64,000 nt of DNA, from contig NC_017243.1 in NCBI RefSeq assembly GCF_000223215.1, positions 1,860,001 to 1,924,000 on the forward strand, given 5' to 3'. A model generated the notes under the pieces. The model did not search any database. It saw nothing but the letters and a program-made list of their open reading frames with translations, and was not told where the DNA came from. Made by a program: the position numbers and the translations under genes. Shown one piece after another: positions 6,274 to 46,721 of the stretch (its first letter is position 1; every line of letters starts with the position of its first letter). This DNA comes from Brachyspira intermedia PWS/A. Its GTDB lineage: Bacteria; Spirochaetota; Brachyspiria; Brachyspirales; Brachyspiraceae.

Positions 6274-6573
6274 AATTCCCCCATAATCCATTCCAACAAA
6301 ACATGTTTACCTTTTGTATATTATATATAAAATATCTTTTTTTACAAGCACTATAATCTACACTACTTTTTATACAAATAAAATAAAAAATTGTAATTGA
6401 CTTTTTGTTTTATATTTATACAATTTATAGGTTATAAAAATGTATAATTTTTCATAGTAAATACTTGTATGTAAGTTATTTTAAATATTTTATTATTGAG
6501 CATTTTTATATATAAGTAAGTGAAAATATCTATTTTACTTAGAATATACTTTGACGAATGCATGCAAAAGAGA

Positions 6574-7109
6574 GAGAACAATTTTTATAAGTAATTAAAT
6601 AAAAATTGTGAGCCTATGGCAAGTTTACTTTAGAGAGCCTTTGCTGAAGGCATATAAAACTAGAGAACAATTTTTATAAATAACTAAATAAAAATAGTGA
6701 GCATATTACAAGTTTACTTGGCAGAGCCTTTGCCGAAGGCATATAAAACTAGAAAACAATTTTTATAAATAATTAAATAAAAATTGAGAGCCTCTCGCAA
6801 GTTTACTTTAGAGAGCCTTTGCTGAAGGCATATAAAACTAGAGAACAATTTTTATAAATAACTAAATAAAAATTGTGAGCCTCTCGCAAGTTTACTTTAG
6901 AGAGCCTTTGCTGAAGGCATATAAAACTAGAGAACAATTTTTATAAATAACTAAATAAAAATTGTGAGCCTCTCGCAAGTTTACTTGACAGAGCCTTTGC
7001 CGAAGGCACGCAAAGCGAGCGAACAATTTTTATAAATAACTAAATAAAAATTGTGAGCATATTACAAGTTTACTTGTAATATACTTTTAGCGAACAATTT
7101 TTATAAATA
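6574..7109. repeat. array of 89-bp direct repeats with internal hairpins
   Basis: Unit starts at 6574, 6663, 6752, 6841, 6930 and 7019, spaced exactly 89 bp; a final partial copy begins near 7091. Each unit holds an 11-bp inverted repeat (ACAATTTTTAT / ATAAAAATTGT, 10-nt loop) and a GCCTT-TGCYG-AAGGC hairpin. The sixth unit contains the perfect palindrome ATATTACAAGT-TT-ACTTGTAATAT instead of the CTCTCGC...GAGAG form. There are no unique spacers. The array fills most of the gap between the minus-strand lipoprotein and the plus-strand HAD gene and ends 12 nt before the HAD ribosome-binding site. Confidence 0.92.
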
Positions 7110-7122
7110 ATAGAGGTAATAA

Positions 7123-7893
7123 ATGATTAGTATAATATCAGATATGGACGGAGTTATATACAGAGGCAATAATTTAATAGAAGGTGCAGAAGATTTCATA
7201 AAAATGTTATTGTATAAAAATGTACCTTTTCTATTTTTAACAAATAATGCCGAACAAACTCCTAGAGATTTAAAAAGAAAATTAGAATCATTGGGCGTAA
7301 ACGGATTAGATGAAAAACATTTTTTCACAGCAGCACAGGCAACAGCTATATTCCTACAAAGACAGCTTGCAAACGGTACTGCTTATGTAATAGGAACAGG
7401 CGGACTTGTAAGCGAATTATATAATGTGGGATATAGTATCAATGATGTTAATCCTGATTATGTAGTAGTTGGGAAAACTAATGCCTTTAATTTTGATATG
7501 CTTCAAAAGGCAGTGCATCTTATTAATAAAGGTGCAAAATTTATAGGCTGCAATCCGGATATAGTAGACCCTGCTCCTAATGGAGAATTAATACCTGCAG
7601 TAGGTCCTATACTTGCAGCAATAGAAACAGCTACAGGTAAAAAGCCTTATATTGTAGGTAAGCCGAATCCTATTATGATGTCTATAGCTAAAAATCAAAT
7701 AAATGCACATAGTGAAAATACATTGATGGTTGGCGATAGAATGGATACAGATATATTGGGAGGACTTGGTGCTGGTATGAAAACGGCTTTAGTACTTTCA
7801 GGAGTTACTACAAAAGCAATAATGGAAGAGTTTCCATACAGACCAAATTATATATTTAATTCTGTTGCAGAAATAGATATAGAAAAATTATAA
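7123..7893 (+). CDS. HAD-IIA family phosphatase (NagD-like)
   Basis: A 256-residue cytoplasmic hydrolase of the HAD superfamily, subclass IIA, which dephosphorylates small phosphorylated metabolites (sugar phosphates, p-nitrophenyl phosphate or nucleotides in characterised members). Motif I is SDMDGVIYRG, with nucleophile D7 and general acid D9. Motif II is FLTNNAEQT; the C2 cap follows; motif III is VGKPNP; motif IV is MVGDRMDTDILGG. Length and motif order match NagD. GAGG lies 8 nt before the ATG. The 5' region is the 89-bp repeat array, which may be transcribed as an unusually structured leader. The exact substrate is not predictable. Confidence 0.9.
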   Translation: MISIISDMDGVIYRGNNLIEGAEDFIKMLLYKNVPFLFLTNNAEQTPRDLKRKLESLGVNGLDEKHFFTAAQATAIFLQRQLANGTAYVIGTGGLVSELYNVGYSINDVNPDYVVVGKTNAFNFDMLQKAVHLINKGAKFIGCNPDIVDPAPNGELIPAVGPILAAIETATGKKPYIVGKPNPIMMSIAKNQINAHSENTLMVGDRMDTDILGGLGAGMKTALVLSGVTTKAIMEEFPYRPNYIFNSVAEIDIEKL

Positions 7894-14557: not shown

Positions 14558-16360
14558 TTAATTAATTTCAAAAGTATAATGCGTAACAGCCTCATCAGGA
14601 CGGAAATAATCGCTGCCATTGTCTTTAATTATCTTTAACATATCAGCCATAGCCTTATAGTACAAGAAATAATAATCATATTTTTTATAATCTTCCATAG
14701 TTTTTGCAGCCTGAAGTAAAGCATAATATTTCTGTGAAAGATTCAAGGCCGTTTCATATTGAGTATTAAGTTTAAACTGTCTGTCATAATCAACTAAACG
14801 CACTATTTTATTATTAAAAGTAAATAAATCAGCTCCGCCGCTCTCCCAACCTATAGAGGAAGTCGTTTGATTATTAGGCACAACATTAACCCAGTCAGAC
14901 TCTTGTGCTTTATCAGGAGGCACTGAAGATACTTGTAATTGATAATAACCAGACTTTTTAATATGCTCCTCTGTAACGGTGAAATTAGTTTCAAATCTAT
15001 CAACAGTTTCCATAATCTCTTTTATTGGAGGCATAGGATAAGTGCTGTTGAATGTTCTGTAGTATTTGCCGTTTAACTCAGTGTATGAAGGCTCTAAAGG
15101 CGTACCGTCAGGAGGTTCGTATGATAATAAAGGAACTGTATAATTATCTATTGTTTTATATATTTTAAGTTTAGAGAAATCTACATCTTTTTCTTCCTTC
15201 CAATTTATACCGTCTTCTGTTGACCATCTTTTAGTGGCATCTGCAGCAAGTTCAAAAGCATTGCTCCAAAGATTATTATTTTTATTATACTCATAATAAT
15301 GAATATAGAGAGTTTCAAATACATATAATTTATTTTTATAATACCAAATATATGTATCTGATTCTCTTTCTTTGCGTAGAGGAAATTCATGTTCTACCCA
15401 ATTATTATTATCTGAAGTATCTTTATTTACATCAACACTATAATATCTCATTCCAGGATGAAAAAATTTAGGTGCAGAAGGATCTCTGTACCCTTCAGGA
15501 TGTGTATCCATAGGGCTTTCCTGAACGAAAAGAAATAATCTGCCATTAAGATAAAATAGTGATGAAAAAGTTAAACCATGTACACCATATCTTCCCTGTA
15601 TAGTAGGATTATCTTTATTAGGCTGAGGAATATTATAAGTTTTCTTTTCTCTATTTGCCGAGTATGCCCAATTTATAAGACTGTCTGATTCTCTGCTGAT
15701 AAAATCTATAGTATAATTTGAATAGACACCAAAAGGATAGTAAGGATATAAACAAATAACACTATCAAAATTTAGTTTTTCAAATTTTACTTCATATAAA
15801 TCATATCCGTATGCTTTTTGTTCAGGGTTTGATGGTATTAATACTTTATTTGCTTCTATTATCAATTTCTTTGAATTTAGATTAGTCCAATACTCTGCTT
15901 GTTCCAAATTATCGCCTAATTTAAGACTATATATTTTAGTTATTGTTTTTCCGTCTTTCTCTATTCTTAATACTGCACCTTTATTTAATTGTCTAAGCAT
16001 TTTTGTTTCAGGGTTATATTCATATTCATTTGTAGCTAAAACATACCAGTCATTTTTAAACTTAAATCTTCTTCCGTATCCACCGAATACTGTACCGTTT
16101 GGAACTACTTCAGGTTTTACTTCAATAGGTTTCTCTTCAATATCTCCTTCGTCTGGAGGGTCTGGAACTGGTGTTGGGTCTGGGTAGTCTGGTATTTCAG
16201 GCTTCTCATCATCTATGATTGGAAATGCCGTTGGAGGAGGTATATTGTTCGGCCCTAAGAGATTTACCTTTTTACAGGACATTATCAGCACTATTATAAA
16301 AATTAATAAAAGTAGTAAAAAATAAAATTTCTTATTTTTGTTAATAAAATTCTTTTTCAT
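14558..16360 (-). CDS. lipoprotein A of a three-member family, Asp-box propeller-like
   Basis: Start placed at the ATG at 16360, with GAGGG 7 nt upstream; an in-frame TTG at 16408 has no site. The 600-residue protein has a Lys-rich N-terminus, a hydrophobic segment ending in lipobox LIMSC, then LLGPNNIPPPT and a Pro/Asp/Glu-rich linker. The body has repeated (S/T)xxDxxxW strands such as STEDGINWKEE, resembling BNR/Asp-box beta-propeller blades. The C-terminus RPDEAVTHYTF is shared with paralogues at 23143 and 44582. Residues 1-150 and the C-terminal 200 are nearly identical to the 44582 copy, while the middle differs completely. A repeat-containing upstream ORF controls its 5' end. Function unknown; probably surface exposed. 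Confidence 0.85.
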   Translation of the reverse strand: MKKNFINKNKKFYFLLLLLIFIIVLIMSCKKVNLLGPNNIPPPTAFPIIDDEKPEIPDYPDPTPVPDPPDEGDIEEKPIEVKPEVVPNGTVFGGYGRRFKFKNDWYVLATNEYEYNPETKMLRQLNKGAVLRIEKDGKTITKIYSLKLGDNLEQAEYWTNLNSKKLIIEANKVLIPSNPEQKAYGYDLYEVKFEKLNFDSVICLYPYYPFGVYSNYTIDFISRESDSLINWAYSANREKKTYNIPQPNKDNPTIQGRYGVHGLTFSSLFYLNGRLFLFVQESPMDTHPEGYRDPSAPKFFHPGMRYYSVDVNKDTSDNNNWVEHEFPLRKERESDTYIWYYKNKLYVFETLYIHYYEYNKNNNLWSNAFELAADATKRWSTEDGINWKEEKDVDFSKLKIYKTIDNYTVPLLSYEPPDGTPLEPSYTELNGKYYRTFNSTYPMPPIKEIMETVDRFETNFTVTEEHIKKSGYYQLQVSSVPPDKAQESDWVNVVPNNQTTSSIGWESGGADLFTFNNKIVRLVDYDRQFKLNTQYETALNLSQKYYALLQAAKTMEDYKKYDYYFLYYKAMADMLKIIKDNGSDYFRPDEAVTHYTFEIN

Positions 16361-16370
16361 AATATAACCC

Positions 16371-16652
16371 TCAAGTATTATTATACAATTTTTTATTATT
16401 ACTATCAATAAATTTTATTAAAATTTTATATTTATTAATCTTATTTACATTCTTAATGTTATAGAATATTTTGAATAAAATTAGGCAAATTTTTTTTGAT
16501 GATTGATAATCGTATAAAGAATTTATATTATTGGCTTGGCTTGGCTTGGCTTGGCTTGGCTTGGCTTGGCTTGGCTTGGCTTGGCTTGGCTTGGCTTGGC
16601 TTGGCTTGGCTGTGATAGCTAAGCGAGAATTAAAAAATAACAAATCAAACAT
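16371..16652 (-). CDS. leader ORF containing the TTGGC repeat, stopping in the lipoprotein Shine-Dalgarno
   Basis: A 93-codon ORF: MFDLLFFNSRLAIT, then five AKPSQ pentapeptides encoded by the 16-copy pentanucleotide repeat, then an Asn/Lys/Ile-rich tail ending KKLYNNT. Its TGA (16371-16373) overlaps the GAGGG ribosome-binding site (16368-16372) of lipoprotein A, the classical layout for translational coupling. It has no ribosome-binding site of its own; a promoter-like pair puts the transcript start at or next to its ATG. The third locus has an equivalent ORF with 13 repeats. Coding status is inferred from the shared frame, which is set by repeat number. Confidence 0.6.
   Translation of the reverse strand: MFDLLFFNSRLAITAKPSQAKPSQAKPSQAKPSQAKPSQANNINSLYDYQSSKKICLILFKIFYNIKNVNKINKYKILIKFIDSNNKKLYNNT
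16531..16610. repeat. (TTGGC)16 pentanucleotide microsatellite
   Basis: Sixteen uninterrupted TTGGC copies, 80 bp, between the promoter-like element and the lipoprotein A start. The flanks (TGTGATAGCTAAGCGAGAAT on the right, AAATTTTTTTTGAT on the left) are shared with the two other loci. Perfect pentanucleotide tracts of this length are prone to slipped-strand mispairing. Confidence 0.98.
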
Positions 16653-16658
16653 AATTTT

Positions 16659-16686
16659 ATTTTATATTATAATATTATTTTTTCAA
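16659..16686 (-). promoter_or_regulatory. sigma-70-type promoter of lipoprotein A, leaderless geometry
   Basis: TTGAAA (16681-16686), 16-nt spacer, TAAAAT (16659-16664), then 6 nt to the ATG of the leader ORF. The same boxes at the same distance occur in the two paralogous loci. A start 6-7 nt past the -10 box would put +1 at or next to the ATG. Confidence 0.7.
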
Positions 16687-23142: not shown

Positions 23143-24840
23143 TTAATATTTAAACTCCACAGTATAATGCGTAACAGCCTCATCAGGCATAATATACTCT
23201 TTGTAATTCTTCATATAAGCCTCTACTATATCAGCTCTAGCATCATTATACATAGCTTTAAGTATATCTTTACCATAAGGATGAGTTCCGTCTCGGTACA
23301 TTTTAGCTGTTCTTCTAATATCATTAATTACATCAGGATATGATTGAATAGGAGGGCTTTTAAGCATAAGCTCTATTTGATAATAATCTACAAGCTGTAT
23401 TACTTTATTATTAATATTAAGCAATACTTTCTCACCGCCGCTCTGCCATACCATTAAATTATCTGTATAATCTATTGGAGTAATAAGCTTCCAGCTATCA
23501 GATTCATTAGGTTTTTCTCTTGCTGCAAAAAATTGATTCTTACCTGCTCCTTTCAAATGAGTTTCTGAAACAGTAAAATATTCTTCGCCTCTATTATATG
23601 CTGCATCTATTTCTGCATAAGGAGGTTCAGGATAATAATATTCTTTTCCGTCAATATTCCAAGATGAATATATATTATCTGATTTATAATATATACCATT
23701 ATCAAGTTTTATCCAATTAGGTTCTTCAGGAGTTCTTACTCTGTTTTGTAAATATCTATCTAATCCTTTAAAAGGATTATAATAAATAAATTCTGATTTA
23801 TTATAAGCATCTGAATTAGGCTCTAAAGTCCAATTCAAACCATCTGTAGTTGACCATATTCTTTTATCATCGACAAATCTTTCAATTACTATCTCCCATT
23901 TATTAATAGAAGGATTATGTTTATAATAATATCTATCTCCTCCTGTAACATATATCTTATCTTTATCATAACGAATAATAAAACTGTCTCTTTCTCCCCA
24001 AGGAGTATTATCTATTTTTTCCCAATTAGCACCTACAGAAATATCTTTGCTTTTATGTATCCTGTAATAATAATTTTTGCTTACTGTATATGGTCCTAAA
24101 TCTACATTTCTATATCCGGTTGGATTTTGCTCCAAAAAAGTTTCTCTTAACCCCATTAGATATATATAATCTTTAAATTGAAAAAAATCAGATACATTCA
24201 TACCAAATTTACCTTGAAAACTTTCATTAGGATTATTTGGGTTTGGAGAAGGCATTTGATATCGTACATTATTAGTAGAACCATTTGTCTGCCAATTAAG
24301 TAAATCTGATGATGTATAATATATGCTGTCATACAGTATAGAAGTAATAATCAACTCATAATCTACAGGAATATGTAACATAGAGAAACCTCCATATGTA
24401 TAAGGTTCATATATAATTTTATCATTTTCTATTACTGATATATTATATTTTAGTCTGCTAAAAGTATCATAATTAACATTTTTAGCATATACATTTATAT
24501 TGCCGTTATCATCTATTTGAAGAATTATATTTTTATCTATTTGATTTAATGTTTTGCTTTTAGGGTCATAGTTATACATATAGTCAGCTAATATATACCA
24601 TTTGCCTTGATATTTGAATTTCTTACTAAATCCTCCGAATACTTCACCGTTTTTAGCAGGAACTGGGTTTACATCTATATGTCCGGGTATTGTGTCTTCA
24701 GGCAATCTAAAATCAGTTGGAGGCGGTATATTGTTTGGACCTAGTATATTTATCTTCTTACAAGATATCATCAAAACTATAATAAGAATCAATAAAAGAA
24801 GTATCAAATATAATTTTTTATTAATTAAGTTCTTTATCAT
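23143..24840 (-). CDS. lipoprotein B of the three-member family, Asp-box propeller-like
   Basis: 565 residues: IKNLINKKLYLILLLLILII membrane segment, lipobox LMISC, then ILGPNNIPPPTDF as in its paralogues but with a much shorter linker. It has repeated Asp-box-like strands (YTSSDLLNWQT, STTDGLNWTLE) and the C-terminal MPDEAVTHYTVEF. It is more diverged from copies A and C than they are from each other. AGGA lies 7 nt before the ATG; a TGA two codons upstream closes the frame. The upstream repeat ORF is present but ends early here. Role unknown; a surface lipoprotein is likely. Confidence 0.85.
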   Translation of the reverse strand: MIKNLINKKLYLILLLLILIIVLMISCKKINILGPNNIPPPTDFRLPEDTIPGHIDVNPVPAKNGEVFGGFSKKFKYQGKWYILADYMYNYDPKSKTLNQIDKNIILQIDDNGNINVYAKNVNYDTFSRLKYNISVIENDKIIYEPYTYGGFSMLHIPVDYELIITSILYDSIYYTSSDLLNWQTNGSTNNVRYQMPSPNPNNPNESFQGKFGMNVSDFFQFKDYIYLMGLRETFLEQNPTGYRNVDLGPYTVSKNYYYRIHKSKDISVGANWEKIDNTPWGERDSFIIRYDKDKIYVTGGDRYYYKHNPSINKWEIVIERFVDDKRIWSTTDGLNWTLEPNSDAYNKSEFIYYNPFKGLDRYLQNRVRTPEEPNWIKLDNGIYYKSDNIYSSWNIDGKEYYYPEPPYAEIDAAYNRGEEYFTVSETHLKGAGKNQFFAAREKPNESDSWKLITPIDYTDNLMVWQSGGEKVLLNINNKVIQLVDYYQIELMLKSPPIQSYPDVINDIRRTAKMYRDGTHPYGKDILKAMYNDARADIVEAYMKNYKEYIMPDEAVTHYTVEFKY

Positions 24841-24938: not shown

Positions 24939-25058
24939 TCATATTATTGGCTTGGCTTGGCTTGGCTTGGCTTGGCTTGGCTTGGCTTGGCTTGGCTTGG
25001 CTTGGCTTGGCTTGGCTGTGATAGCTAAGCGAGAATGAAAAAATAACAAATCAAACAT
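24939..25058 (-). CDS. leader ORF of lipoprotein B, prematurely closed by its repeat number
   Basis: Begins MFDLLFFHSRLAIT like the leaders of copies A and C. With 14 repeat units it shifts frame on leaving the repeat and meets TGA at 24939-24941, giving 39 codons. With 13 or 16 units it would read N-N-M-N-S-V-Y-Y-Q and on through KKICL, the block seen in the other leaders, and stop at TAG 24859-24861, 8 nt before the lipoprotein ribosome-binding site. Whether it is translated is unproven. Confidence 0.5.
   Translation of the reverse strand: MFDLLFFHSRLAITAKPSQAKPSQAKPSQAKPSQAKPII
24947..25016. repeat. (TTGGC)14 pentanucleotide microsatellite
   Basis: Fourteen perfect TTGGC copies, 70 bp, with the same right flank (TGTGATAGCTAAGCGAGAAT) as copy A and the same AAATTTTTTTTAATGATTGAT-type left flank. 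Copy number differs from the two other loci in the register that matters for the leader ORF. Confidence 0.98.
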
Positions 25059-44581: not shown

Positions 44582-46447
44582 TTAAAGCTCAAAAGTATAA
44601 TGCGTAACAGCCTCATCAGGACGGAAATAGTCATTGCCTTTATCTTTAATTATCTTTAACATATCAGCCATAGCCTTATAATACAAGAAATAATAATCAT
44701 ACTTTTTGAACTCCGACATAGGAGAGTTTAAAAGCAAATTATAATATTTCTCTGAAAGATTCAAGGCCGTTTCATATTGAGTATTAAGTTTAAACTGTCT
44801 GTCATAATCAACTAAACGCACTATTTTGTTATTGAAAGTAAATAAATCAGCTCCTCCGCTCTCCCAGCCTATAGAAGAAGCTAATTCATTATTAGGCACT
44901 ACATTAACCCAGTCAGACTCTTGTGCTTTATCTGGTGGAACTGAAGAAACTTGTAACTGATAATAACCAGACTTTTTAATATGTTCTTCTGTAACAGTGA
45001 AGTTTGTTTCAAATCTGTCAACAGTTTCCATAATTTCCTTTATTGGTGGCATAGGATAAGTGCTGTTGAAAGTTCTGTAGTATTTACCGTTTAACTCAGT
45101 ATAAGAAGGCTCGAAAGGTGTACCATCAGGTATTTCATAACCAAGCATTTTATTAGTTATATTAATTATACTACCTGACGCAGGATCATATCCTCTTGAA
45201 ATCCCTGCCCCTTTAAGCTTATATTTATCCATAACATCATAAGGTTCCTCTTTCCAATTTATACCATCTTCTGTTGTATATACATTCTTAGGATCATTTC
45301 CATTAACATAATAATTAGTCCATAATTTCCATCTATCATTATAGCCACGTTTTAAATAACTAGATTGAATTTCTGCATACAATTTATTTTCATCATACCA
45401 TATACCATATATTTTCAATCCATTTATCATATGATTTGTAACCCAATTTTTAGCATCAGACATATCTTTTCCCCATTCAATCGTATAATATTCATTTTTA
45501 CTCCAATAAAAATCTTCATCATTAGGCTCTATATAATATGTAAGATATTCATTATAAAAATTAAAATCCAATTTAAATACAAATATTTTACCCTTAAAAT
45601 AAATTATCCTATTTTCAATAGTATTTCCAAATCTTCCTTGAAAACTCGGATTATTAAAATTAGGTTTTGGAAAATCAAATACATTTGAGGAAGAAGCTTT
45701 TTTCCAATTTAATAAATCTGATGAACTTCTGTTACTGTAATGAATTATAAGTTTCTCTACATAACCAAAATTATCGTTAGTAATTTTTTTATAAATATCT
45801 TCTATTTTTTCTCCAGTTTCTTCATCATAACTGTATCCCCAATAATAACCAATATTATTAGGTACATTATCAGGAATTTTATATTGCCAATTTGTTGCCC
45901 AGCCTTGAGACTCTGCTTTTACAGGTATCCTTACTTCTGTATCAGTAATAACGAGTTTCTTTGAATGTAAATTCTTCCAATACTCTGTTTGTTCTAAATC
46001 TCCTGAATTAATGCCGTGTATTTTGGTTATTGTTTTTCCGTCTTTCTCTATTCTTAATACAGCACCTTTATTTAATTGTCTAAGCATTTTTGTTTCTGGG
46101 TTATATTCATATTCATTTGTAGCTAAAACATACCAGTCATTTTTGAATTTGAATCTTCTTCCATATCCGCCGAACACTGTACCGTTTTGAACTACTTCAG
46201 GTTTTACTTCAATAGGCTTTTCTTCAATATCTCCTTCATCTGGAGGATCTGGAACTGGTGTTGGATCTGGGTAATCCGGTATTTCTGGTTTATTATCATC
46301 TATGATTGGAAATTTTGTTGGAGGCGGTATATTGTTAGGCCCTAAGAGATTTACCTTTTTACAGGACATTATCAGCACTATTATTAAAATCAATAAAAGA
46401 AGTAAAAAATAAAATTTCTTATTTTTATTAATAAAATTCTTTTTCAT
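44582..46447 (-). CDS. lipoprotein C of the three-member family, Asp-box propeller-like
   Basis: 621 residues from the ATG at 46447, with GAGGG 7 nt upstream, the same start context as copy A. Signal and lipobox LIMSC, LLGPNNIPPPT and the PDPPDEGDIEEKPIEVKP linker are almost identical to copy A, as is the last third (PSYTELNGKYYRTFNSTYPM to RPDEAVTHYTFEL). The middle, about residues 170-430, is unrelated in detail but again shows Asp-box-like strands (YSNRSSSDLLNWKK, YTTEDGINWKEE). This mosaic of identical ends and a variable centre suggests recombination or gene conversion between copies. Probably surface exposed. Confidence 0.85.
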   Translation of the reverse strand: MKKNFINKNKKFYFLLLLLILIIVLIMSCKKVNLLGPNNIPPPTKFPIIDDNKPEIPDYPDPTPVPDPPDEGDIEEKPIEVKPEVVQNGTVFGGYGRRFKFKNDWYVLATNEYEYNPETKMLRQLNKGAVLRIEKDGKTITKIHGINSGDLEQTEYWKNLHSKKLVITDTEVRIPVKAESQGWATNWQYKIPDNVPNNIGYYWGYSYDEETGEKIEDIYKKITNDNFGYVEKLIIHYSNRSSSDLLNWKKASSSNVFDFPKPNFNNPSFQGRFGNTIENRIIYFKGKIFVFKLDFNFYNEYLTYYIEPNDEDFYWSKNEYYTIEWGKDMSDAKNWVTNHMINGLKIYGIWYDENKLYAEIQSSYLKRGYNDRWKLWTNYYVNGNDPKNVYTTEDGINWKEEPYDVMDKYKLKGAGISRGYDPASGSIINITNKMLGYEIPDGTPFEPSYTELNGKYYRTFNSTYPMPPIKEIMETVDRFETNFTVTEEHIKKSGYYQLQVSSVPPDKAQESDWVNVVPNNELASSIGWESGGADLFTFNNKIVRLVDYDRQFKLNTQYETALNLSEKYYNLLLNSPMSEFKKYDYYFLYYKAMADMLKIIKDKGNDYFRPDEAVTHYTFEL

Positions 46448-46457
46448 AATATAACCC

Positions 46458-46721
46458 TCAAGTATTATTATACAATTTTTTATTATTACTATCAATAAAT
46501 TTTATTAAAATTTTATATTTATTAATATTATTTACATTCTTAATGTTATAGAATATTTTGAATAAAATTAGGCAAATTTTTTTTGATATTTTATAAGAAA
46601 GCGATTTTATATTATTGGCTTGGCTTGGCTTGGCTTGGCTTGGCTTGGCTTGGCTTGGCTTGGCTTGGCTTGGCTTGGCTGTGATACCTAAGCAGAAATC
46701 AAAAAATAACAAATCAAACAT
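46458..46721 (-). CDS. leader ORF of lipoprotein C containing the TTGGC repeat
   Basis: An 87-codon ORF: MFDLLFFDFCLGIT, four AKPSQ pentapeptides, then a tail that keeps KKICLILFKIFYNIKNV and ends KKLYNNT like the copy A leader. The stop TGA lies in the GAGGG ribosome-binding site of lipoprotein C, 11 nt from its ATG exactly as in copy A. It differs from the copy A leader by 15 bp of repeat, so the frame is preserved. No ribosome-binding site; promoter boxes lie directly upstream. Confidence 0.6.
   Translation of the reverse strand: MFDLLFFDFCLGITAKPSQAKPSQAKPSQAKPSQANNIKSLSYKISKKICLILFKIFYNIKNVNNINKYKILIKFIDSNNKKLYNNT
46615..46679. repeat. (TTGGC)13 pentanucleotide microsatellite
   Basis: Thirteen perfect TTGGC copies, 65 bp, within the lipoprotein C leader. 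A plus-strand open frame through the repeat (encoding AWLGL repeats) is fortuitous. Confidence 0.98.

Follow-up and report, generated by a model that had tools for sequence, protein, structure and literature searches.

On the minus strand of the window, by which the whole stretch of 64,000 nucleotides of Brachyspira intermedia PWS/A analysed here is meant (NC_017243.1, positions 1,860,001 to 1,924,000), a gene for a putative lipoprotein of 600 aa (lipoprotein A, 14558..16360) is preceded by a leader ORF that traverses a pentanucleotide repeat. In the direction of this strand, the locus consists of a promoter-like pair, the leader ATG at 16652, the repeat array, a TGA and lipoprotein A. The promoter-like pair, TTGAAA-16-TAAAAT (16659..16686), is a 10/12 match with a single mismatch in the -10 box, and it ends 6 nt before the leader ATG. 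The leader ORF (16371..16652, 93 codons) is in the open (ON) frame at the present 16 copies and stops at the TGA at 16373-16371. The array within it (16531..16611) reads (AAGCC)16.2 on the sense strand, which is (TTGGC)16.2 on the forward strand, with a 100% match between copies and no stop codon in any frame. The leader TGA overlaps a Shine-Dalgarno (SD)-like GAGGG (16368..16372) located 7 nt before the lipoprotein ATG at 16360. The first-pass annotation of this DNA had described the promoter-like pair, an ORF from 16652 to 16371 through (TTGGC)16 and a TGA on GAGGG, all of which were confirmed. Locus A combines a perfect non-triplet simple sequence repeat (SSR), placed such that copy number alters the reading frame, with an upstream stop overlapping the downstream SD, as in coupled gene pairs.

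Lipoprotein A carries a signal peptide with the lipobox LIMSC, and a lipobox is also present in the two related lipoproteins B and C of the window; their location at the cell surface is a prediction. A Pfam search with lipoprotein A returned no family. The AlphaFold model of the protein is beta-rich and of low confidence (pLDDT 67). Several of its fold matches were beta-propellers, but with TM scores of about 0.1-0.2 they were unusable.

The consequences of a change in copy number were followed in an in-silico series. With 3n+1 copies the leader ends at the TGA in the SD, with 3n copies at a TAA directly after the repeat, and with 3n+2 copies at a TAA 8 nt after it (16520..16530), the same result as the frame arithmetic worked out by hand beforehand. 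The 170-nt tail between array and gene is unusual in this respect, as only 0.8% of its dinucleotide shuffles place the end of the longest frame at most 25 nt from the gene start. No SD was found upstream of the leader ATG at locus A or at the three sister loci B, C and D described below; a -10 box lies 6 nt upstream instead. This spacing, together with the absence of a leader SD, indicates that the leader mRNA of locus A is probably leaderless, its start being predicted at the leader ATG or no more than 2 nt from it. An intrinsic terminator was sought between leader and gene at loci A-D and none was found. Hiding of the SD of lipoprotein A in an RNA structure was rejected as a candidate, the folds of the initiation region being ordinary (z about -1; tail fold z -1.05). 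As the start region is not unusually structured, OFF may mean low rather than zero expression, and initiation uncoupled from the leader may be appreciable in the OFF state.

Besides that of locus A, three AAGCC arrays occur in B. intermedia PWS/A, each before the gene of a paralogous lipoprotein. Two of these are in the window, both on the minus strand, and the third (D) is at chromosome position 1308889. Array B, (AAGCC)14.2 (24947..25017), has its leader ATG at 25058 and a stop at 24939, and is predicted to be OFF; the lipoprotein behind it (23143..24840) is about 36% identical to A. Array C, (AAGCC)13.2 (46615..46680), lies in a leader (46721-46458) that again ends with a TGA in the SD, and precedes a lipoprotein (44582..46447) that is 67% identical to A. 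Locus D has the same geometry as A and C, and A, C and D are all predicted to be ON. The leaders of A and B are 87% identical in DNA sequence and their proteins about 36% identical, which would fit a leader that is exchanged, or conserved, separately from the gene behind it. A glycan gene cluster elsewhere in the genome (L103; G000:C2:1660001-1680000) contains four ACCAG arrays and one AAGAC array, which, with the four AAGCC arrays before lipoproteins, brings the total for B. intermedia to at least nine. At least three of the ACCAG arrays are located at the 3' ends of genes with a WWIP..KKWR-type terminal motif, and strong terminators follow most arrays of the cluster. The window also contains an 89-bp minisatellite of 5.7 copies with internal inverted repeats (6573-7075), directly upstream of an ORF at 7123-7893.

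Arrays of this kind are widespread in the genus. Among 26 Brachyspira genomes, AAGCC arrays were found in 11 and AAGTC arrays in 7, in a census drawn from pattern and homology searches and from selected stretches of sequence. When gene families rather than repeats served as the query, AAGAC, AACAC, AACAG, ACCAG, ACAGG, ACAGC, AAATC, AAGC and three heptamers were found before the same kind of gene. In total, Brachyspira relatives yielded dozens more arrays with at least ten other units, mostly before glycan-modifying genes. The products encoded downstream are of surface-glycan types, namely FkbM methyltransferases, GT8 and GT11 glycosyltransferases, radical-SAM proteins and a pyruvyl transferase. 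The periods are 4, 5 or 7 only, never 3, 6, 9 or 12, and very long arrays occur, such as AAGC x35 (period 4; L109 in G010) and AAATC x46 (L083 in G005). None of the sense-strand units contains a stop codon in any frame; the set of units analysed had left out stop-containing ones by design, but no array in a stop-containing orientation was seen before the glycan genes of the surveyed family. Just 5' of most AAGCC arrays genus-wide, a GCTTA/GGCTT motif is present that is partly complementary to the repeat unit (in the window, for example, at 16617-16624).

The pattern TATAAT-N4-9-ATG-N10-40-AAGCC was found in 9 of the 26 Brachyspira genomes; a sample of 221 other spirochaetes yielded no match. 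Unrelated sequences with other non-triplet units repeat the same layout across Brachyspira. In one case (L104, G007:C1:1430001-1446000) each of four consecutive genes has its own AAGCC leader, with 10.6, 10.8, 11.8 and 13.8 copies and with three near-identical tails. No repeat leader was found before the lipoprotein relatives of B. hampsonii and Brachyspira sp. G79 (L114 and L115), which suggests that leaders are gained or lost as cassettes.

Three layouts can be distinguished. In layout I (AAGCC/AAGTC), the ATG is 22-47 nt before the array, a TATAAT-like box is mostly 6-9 nt before the ATG and there is almost no SD, so that leaderless leader mRNA is predicted. In layout II (AACAC and the heptamers), the ATG is only 2-6 nt before the array and is sometimes preceded by an SD; the stop of the open frame falls at the base or in the 3' arm of a strong terminator. 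In layout III (ACCAG), the array occupies the 3' end of an upstream gene and is followed by a terminator, the 3' arm of which holds the open-frame stop in several cases. An intrinsic terminator overlapped by the long frame is present at glycan loci such as L012, L030, L061 and L103. At such terminator-bearing sister loci the strong intrinsic terminator lies inside the open frame; the OFF stops are mostly upstream of the hairpin and the ON stops in or beyond it.

The placement of the stops was evaluated after grouping the tails by shared 11-mers into 28 clusters, 20 of which have no strong terminator. In all 20 the longest frame ends at most 25 nt from the gene start, against an expectation of 6.5 under dinucleotide shuffling (Poisson-binomial P about 5e-15), given that gene starts were set by rule (the longest ATG ORF with an SD), that a few starts are ambiguous and that clusters may share deep ancestry. 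An open frame that ends at the gene start in 20/20 clusters is what translational coupling predicts. In the clusters with strong terminators the ON stop is further from the gene start, at 4-64 nt (Mann-Whitney p 0.026). Behind most arrays the OFF stops follow very closely (combined p 0.003).

Copy numbers, and with them the predicted states, vary. Leaders of the AAGCC/AAGTC type that have both a -10 box and an ATG number 30, and 17 of them are predicted to be ON. Orthologous loci, with the same neighbouring genes in different species, differ in copies at B (14.2 v 18.8), C (13.2 v 15.6) and D (11.6 v 14.8). Two duplicated leaders in a single genome have identical flanks and 11.8 v 10.8 copies, by which they are predicted to be OFF and ON, respectively. 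Another species has only about 2.6 copies, and its leader nevertheless reads without interruption from the ATG to the TGA in the SD. One species has a collapsed array, an ATA in place of the ATG and a closed frame, and in another a truncated target gene goes together with a leader frame that ends early. A further leader (L049, G014:C34; 7.6 copies) has apparently been inactivated by a one-base deletion relative to L041. Conservation of the leader peptide was considered and rejected: the tails of A and its counterpart in G017 differ mostly by amino acid replacements, and we therefore do not argue for purifying selection on it. As the peptide is not clearly conserved, the comparative support comes from the openness of the frame.

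The reading that we consider probable is that locus A is a phase-variation (contingency) locus in which a repeat-gated leader is coupled to the start of the lipoprotein gene. The anatomy and its recurrence were observed directly; from them we infer that the array slips in culture, that the leader is translated and that this translation is coupled to that of the lipoprotein. The promoter would give rise to a transcript starting at, or 1-2 nt from, the leader ATG. Ribosomes would translate the leader, traverse the stop-free (AAGCC)n and then enter one of three frames. With 3n+1 copies the open frame would be kept, termination would take place on the lipoprotein SD and the lipoprotein would be started (ON). 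With 3n or 3n+2 copies ribosomes would stop 3-8 nt past the array, leaving about 160 nt to the gene, and expression would be off or low. A change in copy number by slipped-strand mispairing would flip the state. With no terminator before lipoproteins A-D and a leader ORF that continues as far as the SD, coupling, either by reinitiation or by ribosome delivery, is the most likely step. The earlier proposal that repeat number gates the delivery of ribosomes to the lipoprotein start is supported in part. As far as frame gate and coupling are concerned, the comparison supports it strongly, by the recurrence of the layout across Brachyspira, by the stop positions in 20/20 clusters and by the differences in copy number between orthologues and between duplicates; a promoter-like site close to the gene could, however, make this control partial.

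The best surviving alternative, which is nevertheless unlikely, is frame-gated antitermination at lipoprotein A. Translation of the leader would then block Rho-dependent termination, and early stops would leave about 160 nt of naked RNA and cause polarity, so that transcription would be controlled by the same repeat gate. Rho is present in the genome, a related antitermination mechanism is most likely in use at those sister loci where the open frame contains a strong terminator, and antitermination is the mode of pil1 of Streptococcus gallolyticus, discussed below. Loci A-D, on the other hand, lack an intrinsic terminator, Rho sites are not predictable here, and antitermination alone does not require an ORF that reaches exactly to the SD. 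Rho-dependent polarity at lipoproteins A-D is possible as an addition to coupling.

It is less probable still that lipoprotein A is driven by a promoter of its own and that the repeat leader is a relic or has little effect. The candidate, TTGATA-17-TATAAT, is located inside the leader tail (16380..16408) and is near-consensus: it matches at 11/12 positions with a 17-nt spacer, its predicted start is just before the GAGGG, and none of 200 shuffles did as well. Locus C has exactly this sequence and locus D a nearly identical one. It is, however, absent at B and from most other leaders, a match of at least 10/12 being reached in only 2 of the 28 clusters. A separate promoter would also leave unexplained why the open frame of every leader without a terminator stops at the gene start and why copy number and state vary. 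As judged from its sequence, the site may provide repeat-independent expression of lipoprotein A, bypassing the leader, beside the coupling favoured here.

There is very little to be said for an array acting through the length or composition of the 5' region, by promoter spacing or protein binding, instead of through the frame. A precedent is the bca gene of group B Streptococcus, the expression of which depends on the number of copies of upstream AGATT repeats (Puopolo and Madoff 2003, as cited in PMC7098570). Both systems have five-nucleotide repeats upstream of a surface protein, and the passage on bca in PMC7098570 describes it without a frame-gated leader. In Brachyspira, however, the array is downstream of the -10 box and the predicted transcript start, the units are diverse yet all non-triplet, and the stop positions are structured. 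A neutral variable repeat with a chance ORF, conceivable in AT-rich genomes that yield many short ORFs, was already disfavoured and is barely credible in view of the stop placement (P about 5e-15), the recurrence with unrelated sequences and units, and the position before surface-type genes.

For the genus as a whole, the balance tips in favour of a phase-variation system of modular repeat-gated leaders of two kinds: leaderless coupling, at lipoproteins and some glycan genes, and antitermination, at glycan clusters, in which leaders or 3' gene ends would carry ribosomes over a terminator.

The elements of coupling at locus A are familiar ones. Translationally coupled gene pairs are characterized by a stop/SD or ATGA overlap, and locus A likewise has its upstream stop on the SD of the next gene, where such pairs have it on the SD or the start codon; unlike in ordinary coupled pairs, a mutable repeat determines whether the upstream frame is in register. 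In the coding-repeat contingency genes of Neisseria, Haemophilus and Campylobacter, slippage of a non-triplet SSR shifts the frame of a surface-related product. At locus A the repeat sits in a separate leader ORF instead, and the mature lipoprotein is therefore unchanged.

The closest known system is the pil1/pil3 switch of S. gallolyticus, where a surface operon is preceded by a short leader ORF that contains a pentanucleotide repeat, GCAGA (Danne et al. 2014, PMC3894217). In pil1, copy number modulo 3 sets the end of the leader, and translation to its far end raises expression via antitermination at a terminator (PMC3894217). Common to pil1 and Brachyspira are the non-triplet SSR in a leader ORF and the frame that decides on the length of the leader. 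The Brachyspira glycan loci share with pil1 also the terminator hairpin inside the longer frame, short leaders ending before the hairpin and long ones in or beyond it. Lipoprotein A, in contrast, has no terminator and its leader ORF ends in the SD of the gene; the pil1 leader has a ribosome-binding site, whereas the AAGCC/AAGTC leaders are apparently leaderless; and in Brachyspira dozens of loci are involved, which employ at least ten units and are built in several layouts, in one of which the array is placed at the 3' end of the gene upstream. The description of locus A in the first-pass annotation as an unusual form of contingency locus has to be tempered, because a repeat-gated leader peptide on a surface operon was already proven in S. 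gallolyticus pil1/pil3; what stands of it is that lipoprotein A does without the terminator of that system. S. gallolyticus provides the precedent for gating a leader by a repeat; new in Brachyspira are the proposed coupling, the predicted leaderless starts and the spread over many loci of the genus. In a 2025 review of phase variation the terms leader peptide, attenuation, terminator and gallolyticus are all absent. The full-text literature searched, which does not extend to subscription papers, contained no description of Brachyspira loci that are phase-variable or subject to slipped-strand changes, and what looks like a widespread on/off system is apparently previously undescribed there.

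If the coupling reading is true, repeat-gated coupling would be a second mechanism beside the proven repeat-gated attenuator, and would let a simple repeat switch a gene in a novel manner, with coding sequence and promoter left untouched. With dozens of loci carrying different units, the modulo-3 prediction is directly testable. Brachyspira are important gut spirochaetes of pigs and poultry, in which the lipo-oligosaccharide and lipoproteins of the surface are relevant to typing and immunity. Surface composition would become readable from repeat counts in genome data, and typing and antigen work would have to allow for switching.
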